Below, in pieces: positions 12,199 through 16,939 of a stretch of DNA of 29,894 nt; position 1 is the stretch's first letter, and each line of letters starts with the position of its first letter. The DNA is from a virus, in the IMG/VR virus record IMGVR_UViG_3300046506_000171, positions 1-29,894 of that record, one strand, 5' to 3'. A program made the position numbers and the translations under genes. Under the pieces are notes generated by a model, which made no database searches, had not been told where the DNA came from, and saw nothing but the letters and a program-made list of their open reading frames with translations.

Positions 12199-12489
12199 GT
12201 GTTGGGTGTGTTGGGTGTGTGTCGGGTTGGTTTCGGTTACCCAACACAGTTTCGGTCCTTTATTTGCGCGGGTTTCCGGCTGTTGTGCTGGGTGTGTTGG
12301 GTTTGGCGTCGCGTGCGCGCATGCGTGACGTTATTTGCACTGAATACAACGGTAAGAATTTTTTCTTATGCGAGGACAGAAAAACCCAACAAACCCAACA
12401 CACTCAACTCAAAGTTAATAAGAGTATTGATTTTAAAGGGATTTATTTGTGTTGGGTTTGTGTTGGGTAGTGGTTTTTTTGTGTCGGGT
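12199..12489. repeat. Array of GTGTTGGGT repeats, candidate replication origin
   Basis: About eleven copies of GTGTTGGGT (some with one change) occur in 291 bp. Plus orientation copies start at 12199, 12208, 12219, 12285, 12294, 12449, 12460 and 12481. Minus copies lie at 12239-12247, 12384-12392 and 12393-12401. Between them is AT-rich DNA (about 12331-12380 and 12405-12448). Iterons plus an AT-rich unwinding zone directly behind the primase-helicase gene fit an origin. An open frame of 111 codons (12181-12516) with ATGA overlaps at both ends also spans this stretch; its product is low-complexity and probably reflects the G/T-rich repeats. Confidence 0.65.
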
Positions 12490-12512
12490 TCGGTTTTTCG
12501 GGGGGTAGGGCG

Positions 12513-12995
12513 ATGATCGAGGCAATGGAAGTGCTGCTGAAGCACTGGGGTGAGCAACTTCGGCGCAATGGTGAGGTGGGTGGCATGGGTAGCCCAATGG
12601 CAACGATCATGGAGTGGGGCGGATGTGCACCGCGCGGCACTCCCGGATCTCGGATCATTATGGGGACTGGTGCGGGGCCTGATGCAGTAGCTCAGGAAGT
12701 CGGTGCGGCTCTTTCAGAGATCGCCCGACAAGATGGGCGGGGAGAAAGGCTGCTGCAATTGGCGGTCTTGCGCTATGGCGACGACCCTGCACCGACTTGG
12801 ATTTCGCAGATGCATGAGCTGGGGTATGTGTCCAAGGCGAAGCAAACCTACTACGACCTTGTGCACAGTCTTCATGTGCGACTCTATGAGGTGTTGGCCG
12901 AGCGCAAAGATGCACGCAAATGGCTTACCGCTGGTCGGGGCGCTTTACCTCAAAGTCTCCTCAAAGTTGCGTCAAAGTTGCGTCGAGCTGGTTAA
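12513..12995 (+). CDS. Phage protein before the lysis genes, possible late regulator
   Basis: A 160-residue soluble protein. The N-terminal half contains the stretch WGGCAPRGTPGSRII (about 35-49). The C-terminal half is helical (AKQTYYDLVHSLHVRLYEVLAERK, about 110-133), and a basic tail follows. Proteins of this type lie between the replication module and the holin in Pseudomonas prophages, the place where lambda carries antiterminator Q. A Q-like role is inferred from position and the helical, basic C-terminus only; no domain proves it. It ends at 12995 inside a hairpin, and 190 bases of structured non-coding DNA follow before the holin, as would suit a late-promoter/leader region. Confidence 0.78.
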   Translation: MIEAMEVLLKHWGEQLRRNGEVGGMGSPMATIMEWGGCAPRGTPGSRIIMGTGAGPDAVAQEVGAALSEIARQDGRGERLLQLAVLRYGDDPAPTWISQMHELGYVSKAKQTYYDLVHSLHVRLYEVLAERKDARKWLTAGRGALPQSLLKVASKLRRAG

Positions 12996-13080
12996 CCGAA
13001 AATGCCCTCTTTTCGGTTCCGTACTCAGGGGGTAAAAAGTCACCAAGATATGAATTCTGCGCCTCGGCGCTTCCCCTGAG
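12994..13080 (+). promoter_or_regulatory. Structured intergenic leader before the lysis/late genes
   Basis: A perfect 9-bp stem (12994-13002 with 13010-13018) overlaps the stop codon of the gene before. It is followed by CTCAGGGG (13024-13031) pairing with CCCCTGAG (13073-13080) around an inner GCGC/GCGC hairpin (13059-13062 with 13067-13070). No clear promoter was identified. The region could be a processed leader, a small RNA or an antitermination site. Confidence 0.4.
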
Positions 13081-13121
13081 CACGTGCTGTGCACTCCGTC
13101 CTGGCAAGCGCCGCGACACTG

Positions 13122-13153
13122 AAAACCCTGCCCTCCGGCGGGGTTTTCTTTTT
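13122..13153 (+). terminator. Intrinsic terminator upstream of holin
   Basis: An 11-bp stem with one G-T pair (13122-13132 with 13137-13147, 4-base loop) is followed by a T-rich tract. It lies between the possible late regulator and the holin gene, where an antiterminator would have to act for late expression. Confidence 0.8.
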
Positions 13154-13186
13154 GTGTTTGGCGCGCTCTTTCACTTGAGGCACAAC

Positions 13187-13531
13187 ATGACAAATGAGCA
13201 GCAAGCGCTGGCAGAGATGCCGATCTGGTTAGTGATCGTCCTGGCCTTGGTCGGCGGCGTATCCGGTGAAATGTGGCGAGCAGATAAAGACGGGGCGCGG
13301 GGCTGGGCATTGTTGCGGCGCCTGGCGCTTCGGTCCGGTGCCTGCATTGTCTGCGGGGTGTCGGCGATGATGCTGATGATCGGCGCGGGCATGACGATCT
13401 GGACGGCCGGCAGCTTGGGTTGCCTGACCGCGATGGCCGGCGCTGATGTCGCGATCGGGTTGTACGAGCGCTGGGCTGCCAAACGGTTGGGCGTCAGTGA
13501 AATGCCCGCCGAATCTAATCGTTCTGAATAA
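13187..13531 (+). CDS. Phage holin family protein
   Basis: A 114-residue inner-membrane protein with three hydrophobic segments (about 12-29, 51-72 and 74-90), short charged loops and a charged C-terminal tail ending in ESNRSE. This matches three-helix phage holins of the type found in Pseudomonas and P2/HP1-like phages, which form membrane lesions to release the endolysin. The ATG at 13187 has GAGG seven bases upstream. No endolysin gene lies nearby in this window; it is probably downstream of the tail genes, as in related prophages. Confidence 0.82.
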   Translation: MTNEQQALAEMPIWLVIVLALVGGVSGEMWRADKDGARGWALLRRLALRSGACIVCGVSAMMLMIGAGMTIWTAGSLGCLTAMAGADVAIGLYERWAAKRLGVSEMPAESNRSE

Positions 13532-13567
13532 CTCTCACCCAGCCACTCATTTAGTAGGTCTCCGGCA

Positions 13568-14068
13568 ATGAATGAATCCAGGCAGCAGCAGATGCTTGCA
13601 GGGCAATCTTCCATCGCTCAAAAAATCTTTAGTTATGTACCCATTCAATCATGCTGGGCCGCTCGTGATATTCACGGCGCCGTCCTGGCGGCCAATGTCA
13701 GTGGCGCATCTGCCTATGCTATACGCCGCGCTCTTGGTGAGCTCAAAGATGCCGGGCTGATCAGGGAGCCAATCGGCGGAAAGTTTCAGCGGGCTGTAGC
13801 CACACCCAAATCCAAGAAGGAGACAACCATGCCTCAGGCATCCAAGCAGTCCGTTGCATCGACGAAAACAACCGATGGCGCGCTGGACGTATTGGCAACC
13901 CTGTCGGGTGAAGTGGTGAGCCTGTCTGAAGAGTTCAGCAAGCGCATGAAGGTATTGGCTGGCCGCATCGAAGAGGTAGCCCTGTCGGTAGAGGCTGAGC
14001 GCGAAAGTAATGCTGAAGCCATCGTCAAAGCCAAGCGACTGCAAGAGGCGCTGCGAGAATTTGCGTAA
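13568..14068 (+). CDS. wHTH plus coiled-coil phage protein with internal start
   Basis: A 166-residue protein. Residues about 15-75 resemble a winged helix (SGASAYAIRRALGELKDAGLIREPIGGKFQRAV); residues 105-165 are a coiled coil (EEFSKRMKVLAGRIEEVALSVEAER). The full-length start at 13568 has a poor ribosome site. An in-frame ATG at 13829 (residue 88) has a perfect AAGGAG six bases upstream and would give a 79-residue coiled-coil protein alone. Both forms may be made. It lies between the holin and the terminase. The function is unknown; a regulator with a truncated partner, or a packaging accessory factor, are possibilities. Confidence 0.75.
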   Translation: MNESRQQQMLAGQSSIAQKIFSYVPIQSCWAARDIHGAVLAANVSGASAYAIRRALGELKDAGLIREPIGGKFQRAVATPKSKKETTMPQASKQSVASTKTTDGALDVLATLSGEVVSLSEEFSKRMKVLAGRIEEVALSVEAERESNAEAIVKAKRLQEALREFA

Positions 14069-14316
14069 ACACCCACCTTTGCTGTCCGGGGACGGCCTAC
14101 CGCTCGCGTGTCCTCGAAGTGCCACCCGCAGGTGGCGAGCTGGGGTAGGTGCACCGGTTTGGGGCGCCGAAAACTGCCGGGGACCCTGGGGTTATTCGGA
14201 GGGTACGGGGTCGGAAACCCGCGGGAAGTTGTTAGCGGCAGAGTCTCCAGCTTACTGAAATTCAATCCATTGAAATTGAAAGATTTCCATTGAAAAGCCG
14301 TTGAAAAGGAGGGCTT
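14069..14316. other. Non-coding region before terminase, candidate cos/packaging site
   Basis: A stretch of 248 bases holds no credible gene. The first 160 bases are GC-rich with G-runs (14175-14215). The last 60 are AT-rich with four TTGAAA copies (14270, 14276, 14290, 14301), two of them within repeated CCATTGAAA. A GpA-type terminase follows; lambda relatives have their cos site directly before the small terminase gene. The cohesive end itself was not identified. The strong ribosome site AAGGAGG of the next gene lies at 14307-14313. Confidence 0.5.
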
Positions 14317-14919
14317 ATGACAGAACCAATGTACCTGTCAAAGAGCGCCTTCGCGGCTCGGATCGGTAGGGCACCCAGTTACATCACCTGGTTGAAAAAC
14401 AACAACCGCTTGGTGCTGACCGCTGACGGAAAGCAGGTCGATGTCATGGCCAGCGAAACGTTGATTCGCGACACCGCTGACCCCAGCAAGGCCGCCGTCG
14501 CTGACCGGCACCACCAAGACCGGCTTCAGCGTGACGTTTACAGCCAGTTATCCAGTCAGGTCGAGCCGACTTCAATGGCTGCGCCGCCGCCCGCGATCAT
14601 CCCTGCGGGGCAACTGCCCGACTTCCAAAAGGCCCGGGCACTCCGCGAACACAACCTTGCTCAGCTCGCCGAGATCGAGTTGCACAAGGCGAAGGGCTCG
14701 CTGGTCGTCCTGTCAGCGGTTAAAACCGGCGCCTACAACGCCGGCCGCATGCTGCGCGACCAACTGCTCGGAATGCCTCCACAACTCGCTCCCGAACTGG
14801 CGTCCATGACAGACCCTTGGGAAATCGAAAAGCACCTGACGGCGGCGATTCGTCGCTCACTGGAAGACGCTGAACGCATGTCTTCAGCGGACCTTGAACA
14901 AGCACTGACCACGAGTTAA
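14317..14919 (+). CDS. terS: Terminase small subunit (Nu1-like)
   Basis: A 200-residue DNA-recognition subunit of the packaging motor. The N-terminal winged-helix part (MYLSKSAFAARIGRAPSYIT, about 5-24) recalls lambda Nu1 and would bind the packaging site. The middle is Pro-rich (about 88-100), and the C-terminal half is helical (FQKARALREHNLAQLAEIELHKAKG), which suits oligomerisation and contact with TerL. Residues 118-140 with a KGSLV...VKTGAYNAGR pattern are typical of this group. AAGGAGG precedes the ATG. TerL follows after four bases. Confidence 0.85.
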   Translation: MTEPMYLSKSAFAARIGRAPSYITWLKNNNRLVLTADGKQVDVMASETLIRDTADPSKAAVADRHHQDRLQRDVYSQLSSQVEPTSMAAPPPAIIPAGQLPDFQKARALREHNLAQLAEIELHKAKGSLVVLSAVKTGAYNAGRMLRDQLLGMPPQLAPELASMTDPWEIEKHLTAAIRRSLEDAERMSSADLEQALTTS

Positions 14920-14923
14920 GCCT

Positions 14924-16939
14924 ATGCCCACGGAATATACTGACGGTGCAGAGGTGTACCGCGAGGCGTATTTCCGTGGGCTGCGGCCCGACCCGGATGT
15001 CTGGATCGATCAGTGGGCCGACGAATACATGCGGATCCCGCGTGACACCGGCGCCGCTGAGCCCGGCAAATACCGCACCTCGCGCACGCCGTATGCCCGC
15101 GAGCCGATGCGTTGCCTGTCGCCGGCTCACCCCTGTAAGCGCGTGGTCACCATGGTGGCCTCGCAGTTGATGAAAACGCAGATCGCCTTGAACTGGATCG
15201 GCGGCCTGATCCATATGGCACCGTCGAACATCCTGACTCTGTTGCCAAGCCTTGGCCTGGCCAAGCGGGTGTCCTCGCGGATCAGCAAGACGATCAAGGC
15301 CACACCGGTATTGCGAGAGCGTGTGGCGTCCAGCCGATCGCGGGACTCGCGCAACACCATGGACACCAAGGAATTCGAGGGCGGTTCGTTGTACGTCACG
15401 ACTGCCGGCTCGGCGGCCAACCTGGCCGAGCTGTCGGCGCGCTACGTGTACGGCGACGAGATCGATCGTTGGGAGGTAGACATCGGTGAAGAGGGTGACC
15501 CGATTGAGCTAGCCGAAACTCGAGGCAGTACCTTCGGCCGCAACGCGAAGTTCTACTTTTCCAGCTCGCCGACGATCAAAGGCGCATCACGGATCAATGA
15601 TCTGTTCGAGGGCAGCGACCAGCGTTACTACTACGTCCCGTGCCCGAGCTGCGGACATATGCAGACTCTGGAGTGGGAGCGACTGCATTACTCGAAAGAT
15701 TACAGCGTTGTGCATTACGAGTGCGCAGGTCCTGATTGTGACGTACTGATCGAGGAGTACCACAAGGGCGAGATGCTTGCCAAAGGCGAATGGCGTGCCC
15801 ATGCCGAGGGCGACGGTGAGACGATCGGCTTTCACCTCAATGCGCTGTATTCGCCGTTGGGTTGGATGGACTGGAAGTCACTGGCCAAGCAATTTGAGAA
15901 AGCCAAAAAGGCCCAGGCGAAGGGCGATCTTGAACCGATGCAGGTGTTCTACAACACCCGTCTGGCGAAGGTCTGGGACGCAGCCCAAGAGCAAACCAAA
16001 GCCGATGTGCTGAGAAAACGAGCGCGGCTGGAAGACTTCACCCTAGGCTCGCTGTCGGCTGCCGTGCTGATGATTACCGGTTCCGTCGACGTTCAGGCCA
16101 ACCGCCTGGAGTTCATGGCCATGGGATGGGGCGTCGGCATGGAGCGCTGGGTTGTCGACTACCAGGTGGTTTCCGGGGATCCCTCAGACGAACGCACCTG
16201 GGCTGCACTGGACGAATTGCTGAAGGCCAAATACCGCCACCCGTGTGGTGTCGGCCTTGGCATTCTCGCGGTAGCCGTCGACTCCGGTGGCCACCACACC
16301 GATGAGGTCTACCAGTTCTGCCGCGTTCGCCGCTGGCGGAATGTGTTCGCCATCAAGGGTGCGAGCAAACCCGGAAAGCCGGTGATTGCTCAGCGCCCGT
16401 CGATGGTCGACGTGACCTGGAAGGGCCAGACCGAACGCAACGGCGCCGAGCTGTGGTTCGTCGGTACCGACACGGCCAAGGACTGGATCTACAACCGCTA
16501 TCCGTTCGAGTCCGGACCGGGTGCACTGCACTTTGCCAATGACCTACCGGATGACTTCTTTGATCAGTGCGTCGCGGAGCGCAAGGTTGCGCGCTACATA
16601 CGCGGACACAAACGCATTGAGTGGGTCAAGGGCAAGGCCGAGCGTAACGAAGCACTCGACTTGATGGTGTATTGCCTGGCCATGGCACATTACCTTGGCC
16701 TCAACCGTTACAAGGAACACGACTGGGAGCGAGTGCGTCAGTCCTTGGCGCAGTCTGGTCTGTTCGACGACGCATTGGGCATCAAGCCTGTTCAAGGCGA
16801 ACGCGTCACCGGACCAGCAACACCAGTTGCTGCGCCGCAATCGGCTCCACAACCTACTGCTCCGATCGTGCAATCGCGACCGGCAGCACCGCCACCTCAA
16901 CGCCGCAGCTCCACCAGCGGTTATCTGAAGAGACGCTGA
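14924..16939 (+). CDS. terL: Terminase large subunit, GpA family
   Basis: A 671-residue packaging ATPase/nuclease of the lambda GpA family. The ATPase part has a degenerate Walker A around VASQLMKTQIALN (78-90), as is usual for GpA, and Walker B YVYGDEID (174-181). A Cys-rich insert (Cys240, Cys243, Cys267, Cys272) looks like a zinc ribbon. The nuclease part (about 380-600) contains GSVDVQANRLE and AVDSGGHHTDEV with candidate metal-binding Asp residues. It cuts concatemeric DNA and drives it into the prohead. The C-terminal 60 residues are Pro/Gln-rich and probably flexible. It is intact and of normal family length. Confidence 0.96.
   Translation: MPTEYTDGAEVYREAYFRGLRPDPDVWIDQWADEYMRIPRDTGAAEPGKYRTSRTPYAREPMRCLSPAHPCKRVVTMVASQLMKTQIALNWIGGLIHMAPSNILTLLPSLGLAKRVSSRISKTIKATPVLRERVASSRSRDSRNTMDTKEFEGGSLYVTTAGSAANLAELSARYVYGDEIDRWEVDIGEEGDPIELAETRGSTFGRNAKFYFSSSPTIKGASRINDLFEGSDQRYYYVPCPSCGHMQTLEWERLHYSKDYSVVHYECAGPDCDVLIEEYHKGEMLAKGEWRAHAEGDGETIGFHLNALYSPLGWMDWKSLAKQFEKAKKAQAKGDLEPMQVFYNTRLAKVWDAAQEQTKADVLRKRARLEDFTLGSLSAAVLMITGSVDVQANRLEFMAMGWGVGMERWVVDYQVVSGDPSDERTWAALDELLKAKYRHPCGVGLGILAVAVDSGGHHTDEVYQFCRVRRWRNVFAIKGASKPGKPVIAQRPSMVDVTWKGQTERNGAELWFVGTDTAKDWIYNRYPFESGPGALHFANDLPDDFFDQCVAERKVARYIRGHKRIEWVKGKAERNEALDLMVYCLAMAHYLGLNRYKEHDWERVRQSLAQSGLFDDALGIKPVQGERVTGPATPVAAPQSAPQPTAPIVQSRPAAPPPQRRSSTSGYLKRR

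Follow-up and report, generated by a model that had tools for sequence, protein, structure and literature searches.

Several proteins arise in two forms from in-frame internal or dual starts, among them the long and short forms of McrB, the Tn5 transposase and its inhibitor, and lambda C/Nu3 and S. The short forms of McrB and Tn5 lack the N-terminal DNA-binding part, and the two starts of lambda S lie only two codons apart. All of these are different proteins from phrog_4405, the phage family considered here. According to PMC10327210, RpnL/RpnS employs an internal in-frame start that yields the C-terminal oligomerising domain alone. Both RpnL/RpnS and phrog_4405 thus feature an internal-start C-terminal oligomeriser, but Rpn is described there as a PD-(D/E)XK nuclease and toxin, whereas phrog_4405 is a predicted winged helix with no nuclease domain in its AlphaFold model. 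The same paper describes Cas10d/Cas11d, where the short internal product was shown to co-assemble with the full-length protein; for phrog_4405 such co-assembly is predicted, and Cas10d is an unrelated protein of a CRISPR effector complex. SpaO, as described in PMC12132427, pairs a long protein with a short variant corresponding to its C-terminal 101 residues, a comparable long/short arrangement that differs in being a type III secretion scaffold. In-frame internal starts are also known in phages, where secondary translation products are described for the endolysins CTP1L (PMC4777826), LysIME-EF1 (PMC7098653) and Ms6 lysA (PMC3111421); these too are second, shorter products within a phage gene, but they are cell-wall enzymes rather than DNA-binding proteins. 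The phrog_4405 case would add to this list.

The gene in question lies in a virus record of 29,894 nucleotides, here called the window. On balance, we favor reading it as a gene-within-gene that encodes a long winged-helix form and a short coil form that may tune it. Literature searches, mostly at listing level, returned no report of a second product of phrog_4405 or of its phage D3 member orf76, nor of a mixed long/short winged-helix assembly of such kind. The annotated records of the intact copies examined, model phage D3 included, list the long form only; gene callers give one product per frame, and the predicted second protein is therefore missing from these annotations. Phage PACT201 seemed at first to carry the coil as a gene of its own; this was set aside, since frameshifts break the full gene there and the annotated ORF starts at the internal ATG by accident.

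Predicted domain architecture of the phrog_4405 protein

The window protein matches the phrog_4405 profile over almost its entire length (E 5.8e-48, residues 1-165 against profile positions 1-167 of 168), and D3 orf76 is a relative from the same family. In the AlphaFold model, a winged helix (residues 1-76) is followed by a disordered linker, with pLDDT <50 across residues 79-101, and by one helix (residues 105-165) with a sharp hydrophobic period of 3.5 residues, as in coiled coils. The internal start, at residue 88, lies about midway along this disordered stretch. A D3-type member at 32% identity is predicted to share this layout of winged helix, linker and helix. Fold comparisons of residues 1-81 gave generic winged helices, with Fur (Z 9.3) and Orc2 (Z 9.2) scoring alike; at E <= 0.001 Foldseek matched the model to no PDB entry, and the fold search says no more of the model than that it contains a winged helix. 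Sequence searches of the window protein gave a best E of 0.14 against PDB, no match above cut-off in Pfam or at cut-off in NCBIfam, no match in PADLOC, and no holin match in PHROGs or Pfam. The predicted winged helix makes the long form look DNA-binding.

An internal ribosome site in the window gene

The preliminary description held that an AAGGAG motif lies six bases before an in-frame ATG, and direct reading of the sequence confirms this, the spacer occupying 13823-13828 (Table 1). The two ATGs are separated by 261 bases, or 87 codons, in the same frame, and the two products proposed from them, a winged helix with coiled coil and a coiled coil alone, are supported by the domain model and by the conserved start codon. 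The likeness to lambda-type dual starts drawn at the same time holds as an analogy of layout, but does not extend to lambda S itself, given the distance between the phrog_4405 starts and the lack of a holin match. The anti-Shine-Dalgarno energy is -4.5 kcal/mol at the full-length start and -8.8 at the internal start. Across 37 genes of the window the main starts have a median energy of -5.9, and 11/37 are weaker than -4.5. In these genes an energy of -8 or better precedes 31/404 in-frame internal ATG or GTG codons (15/155 for ATG alone); at such a prevalence, the AAGGAG-ATG of a single sequence could be due to chance and is weak evidence by itself. Its conservation among relatives is what lifts the predicted internal start beyond chance.

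Table 1. Features of the phrog_4405 gene, in window coordinates.
Feature	Coordinates	Strand	Basis
Full-length CDS, phrog_4405	13568..14068	+	166 aa; profile match; relative is phage D3 orf76
Weak ribosome-site remnant AGGT of full-length start ATG 13568	13556..13559	+	Sequence; energy -4.5
Winged-helix domain, residues 1-76	13568..13795	+	AlphaFold model; fold matches over residues 1-81
Linker, residues 77-104	13796..13879	+	AlphaFold; residues 79-101 pLDDT <50
Internal Shine-Dalgarno AAGGAG, codons 84-85	13817..13822	+	Sequence; synonymous constraint at codon 84, not 85
Internal start codon ATG, residue 88	13829..13831	+	ATG/GTG/TTG in 142/146 distinct relatives; tree
Short CDS for the predicted 79-aa product, the coiled coil alone	13829..14068	+	Translation; conservation in relatives
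Single long helix, residues 105-165, heptad (3.5-residue) hydrophobic repeat	13880..14062	+	AlphaFold; periodicity

Conservation of the internal start codon

Relatives were collected from viral contigs (44, 80, 73 and 1 loci on partly overlapping contigs, the 80 being the best 80 of 265 relatives) and from species genomes (26 loci), as well as from phages and plasmids. Matches occurred in 19/398 genomes of the G001 genus and 5/369 of the G001 class, three of the five being marginal and G001 itself entering both counts. The 257 ORF hits reduce to 155 distinct proteins, of which 146 are full length and form 42 clusters at 80% identity. The other nine are partial, frameshifted or broken in profile coverage, and include KPP25 and HRDY3, whose genes were inspected manually. 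Tests on 40 representatives omit L052 and L256, in which neither ATG nor GTG occurs close to the aligned codon: in L052 the internal site is displaced, while L256 is a weak member whose linker lacks both codons beside the aligned one. Displaced starts were used for L040, L046 and L203. Both the column count and the 40-row tests contain one doubtful entry, phage R18, where a ribosome site precedes ATG 117 but not ATG 90, the aligned one.

Retention of the internal start in relatives had been proposed as a check, and a start codon is indeed found at the aligned position in 142 of the 146 distinct full-length proteins: ATG in 115, GTG in 26 and TTG in one, with ATC, GCC, ACC and ATA once each. 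By cluster representative (n=42), the counts are ATG 32, GTG 5, TTG 1 and other 4. Every valine at this position is encoded by GTG (26/26), as against 90/322 of the other valines of those genes, and on the tree the GTG label needs seven changes, six of them forced by well-supported branches. GTG-only valine is not unique to residue 88, since GTG is one step from ATG; at residue 9, all three valines among the 42 representatives are likewise GTG. Residues 9 and 127, the remaining Met-rich internal columns, drift to Leu and Ile via several codons. In these alignments residue 88 is therefore set apart by the absence of Leu/Ile drift, and not by GTG alone.

As a control, 55 Met-majority columns were taken from eight neighbouring gene families (of ten families, two were dropped because their sequences were too few, and another two gave no Met column). 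The holin rows in this control are out of frame, the gene's start having been set at 13189 in place of 13187. No control column combined 97% start codons with two or more GTG, and only 3/55 had any GTG, although the control sets are smaller (19-27 sequences in contributing families) and mostly closer, which gives them less power than the test.

Ten more distant genes were hand-picked from the Pseudomonas phages R18, KPP25, R4900a, CRPAP1904 and HRDY3 (314 kb), the Xanthomonas phages Rb1, CP2, Olaya and SAC (4 of 11 records taken), and the Erwinia phage UCB24. Linker lengths vary, and in all ten the linker contains an in-frame ATG preceded, at 3-8 bases, by a purine-rich site. Shine-Dalgarno energies range from -4.3 to -7.0; the mRNA around the site is open, its windows lying between -2.8 and -8.6 where the genes average -13 to -18. 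The linker of the KPP25-like proteins (R18, 180 aa; KPP25, 218; R4900a, 175; CRPAP1904, 178) comprises Pro-Ala-Gln repeats that differ in number between close relatives, and despite this variation AAGGAACCCAG(C/T)-ATG is kept directly before the coil. Four distant queries against the viral contigs returned no still more distant relatives.

Silent sites, mRNA structure and ribosome-site strength

Synonymous change was measured in 97 rows sharing 50% identity or more with the window protein, which were compared as disjoint pairs in 20 sets (45-48 pairs each in five of them). The 15 lowest of 157 nine-codon windows are all centred on codons 80-95, with a minimum z of -5.2 at codon 91 and an observed/expected ratio of 0.62 at codon 88. 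At codon 84, which supplies the AAG of AAGGAG, there are 0.9 synonymous changes where 11.3 would be expected, while codon 85 is unconstrained (14.7 against 12.8 expected); constraint extends to about codon 99. Before correction for amino acids, dips near codons 33 and 125 were as deep as that at the start, but these disappeared or shrank after correction (0.97 at codon 34 and 0.82 at codon 124) and were discarded.

The mRNA is also unusually open at this site. Across the 40 representatives, a 60-base stretch placed at the internal start folds less stably than its synonymous shuffles (mean z 1.17, combined p 2e-11), and it is the most open of 27 offsets scanned (mean -6.4 kcal/mol, z +1.20, t 9.7), although the rows are related, and the t and p values thus overstate their independence. 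Windows more than 20 codons away have means of -13 to -19 and z of -0.7 to 0.1. Shine-Dalgarno strength was dropped as proof of the start: the internal site averages -5.9 against -4.8 in synonymous shuffles, which is not significant (combined p 0.07, 40 representatives), because the Lys-Glu codons spell the site anyway. A scan of 12400-15000 for sigma-70-like promoters found none that could serve the short form, and tRNA was the sole Rfam match.

The full-length start had also been called weak. This holds in the window gene but does not generalize as a family rule, the internal site being stronger than the full-length site in 6/40 representatives, tied in one and weaker in 33. In the representative of one cluster of 18 distinct proteins (L222), the internal site is weak (-3.6) and the ATG is kept. 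With start strengths so varied, the ratio of long to short product probably differs among phages, and the window's group probably lies at the short-form-rich end. Taken as a whole, the sequence comparisons show an internal in-frame start codon with a ribosome site kept by selection, as in genes-within-genes.

Genomic context

The window is a virus record beginning beside a tRNA-Ser, in which a Prim-Pol primase, phrog_4300, a holin (PF16085), the phrog_4405 gene, and the small and large terminase subunits follow one another. Within the window's own group the phrog_4405 gene lies between holin and terminase, and a holin is upstream in two relatives. Eight upstream neighbours of relatives were compared with PHROGs: four are replication genes, encoding a DnaC-like loader (L222), lambda-P-like proteins (L230, L120) and DnaB (L231), one is phrog_6028, two belong to other function-unlabelled families and one has no match. 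The scanned upstream neighbours in 8P, Arace01 and R18 had no match of known function. Downstream, NinB or NinG is present in 13/42 representatives. In D3 the gene sits between DnaB, with a 39-codon ORF intervening, and DksA/HNH/NinB, and in Xanthomonas phage Olaya it is preceded by an exonuclease and SSB. This synteny suggests a DNA replication/recombination programme, though not in every phage.

Other features of these loci were observed in passing. Both phrog_6028 (L210 5201-5992) and the lambda-P-like loader of L120 (1869-2684) weakly match phrog_1524 (E 4e-4 and 7e-6), which makes phrog_6028 a candidate for a helicase loader not yet recognised as such. A strong terminator-like hairpin, 12 pairs followed by TTTTT, lies in the window at 13121-13148, after phrog_4300 (12513-12995) and before the holin. 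By eye, phrog_4300 resembles Q-type antiterminators; its match to NCBIfam PA0613 is weak and below cut-off (E 5e-8), and together with the hairpin it could form a possible antitermination switch. The roughly 250 bases before the small terminase subunit (14069-14316) appear by eye to be non-coding and partly G+C-rich, and are a candidate cos/pac region. Between the tRNA-Ser and an integrase-like ORF, three head-to-tail ORFs (464-2466, by eye) comprise uncharacterised cargo beside the integration end, with no PADLOC match at E 0.1.

Proposed mechanism and alternative explanations

Our analysis suggests that ATG 13829 is very probably used for translation. Ribosomes starting at ATG 13568 would produce the 166-aa protein, with its winged helix, floppy linker and coiled-coil helix, and those starting at ATG 13829 within the linker would produce the 79-aa coiled coil alone. 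Both products would carry the coiled coil, which makes co-assembly a natural mechanism, and the short form probably hetero-assembles with the long form. The short form would then set the number of winged helices per oligomer, tuning or damping its action on DNA; more tentatively, it might tune the long form's action in replication or recombination.

That the Lys-Glu-x-x-Met of the linker is simply a conserved peptide which mimics a start by chance is very improbable. The frequency of strong sites before internal start codons in the window and the unexceptional Shine-Dalgarno strength relative to shuffles both allow for it, but such a peptide does not account for ATG/GTG exchange without Leu/Ile drift in 142/146 proteins, for synonymous and mRNA-structure minima that coincide with the site, or for the lack of any similar column among the 55 controls. 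The residue moreover falls in a disordered linker, and site and ATG are kept where distant members have rebuilt that linker. It is almost as improbable that the conserved RNA is another element, such as an operator, an RNA-binding site or a domain-boundary pausing site; this would suit the extension of synonymous constraint to about codon 99, but leaves the ATG/GTG exclusivity unexplained, and the Rfam and promoter scans offered no candidate beyond tRNA. Nor do we expect that in the window's group the short form alone matters and the long form is vestigial: its main start is indeed weaker than the internal one, but the N-terminal frame is intact, its amino acids are conserved, and its synonymous sites vary as elsewhere in the gene, and we regard this reading as highly unlikely.

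Other alternatives accept the internal start and differ in what the short product does. It is possible, if rather doubtful, that it is a complementary structural subunit needed by the long form, as Cas11d is with Cas10d, instead of a damper. Retention of the site across phages of several host genera is as expected of an obligate part, and PMC10327210 describes a comparable case, but judging from start strengths the long:short ratio varies greatly from member to member, and nothing in the sequences separates cooperation from damping. An intragenic antitoxin on the RpnL/RpnS pattern, in which a toxic long form is counteracted by the short one, is improbable. The layout with a short C-terminal oligomeriser is the same, and the varying repeat number of KPP25-like linkers recalls the variable Rpn repeats of PMC10327210; against this, the AlphaFold model has no nuclease domain, PADLOC finds no match, and this is a phage gene that often adjoins replication/recombination genes. 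We thus retain the reading of a long winged-helix form tuned by a short coil form.

In its broadest form, which we offer only as speculation, the short form would be an obligate second product of phrog_4405, and a two-size oligomer would time or organise phage DNA replication/recombination in an Ideonella replicon and in phages infecting Pseudomonas, Xanthomonas and Erwinia, the largest of them 314 kb long. The pattern of evidence, comprising ATG/GTG exchange as the only drift of the start codon, a synonymous dip, open mRNA and negative control columns, provides an inexpensive and general way to look for hidden in-frame starts across phage families. Overall, phrog_4405 offers a small, testable system for how phages may tune DNA-binding proteins with truncated partners.
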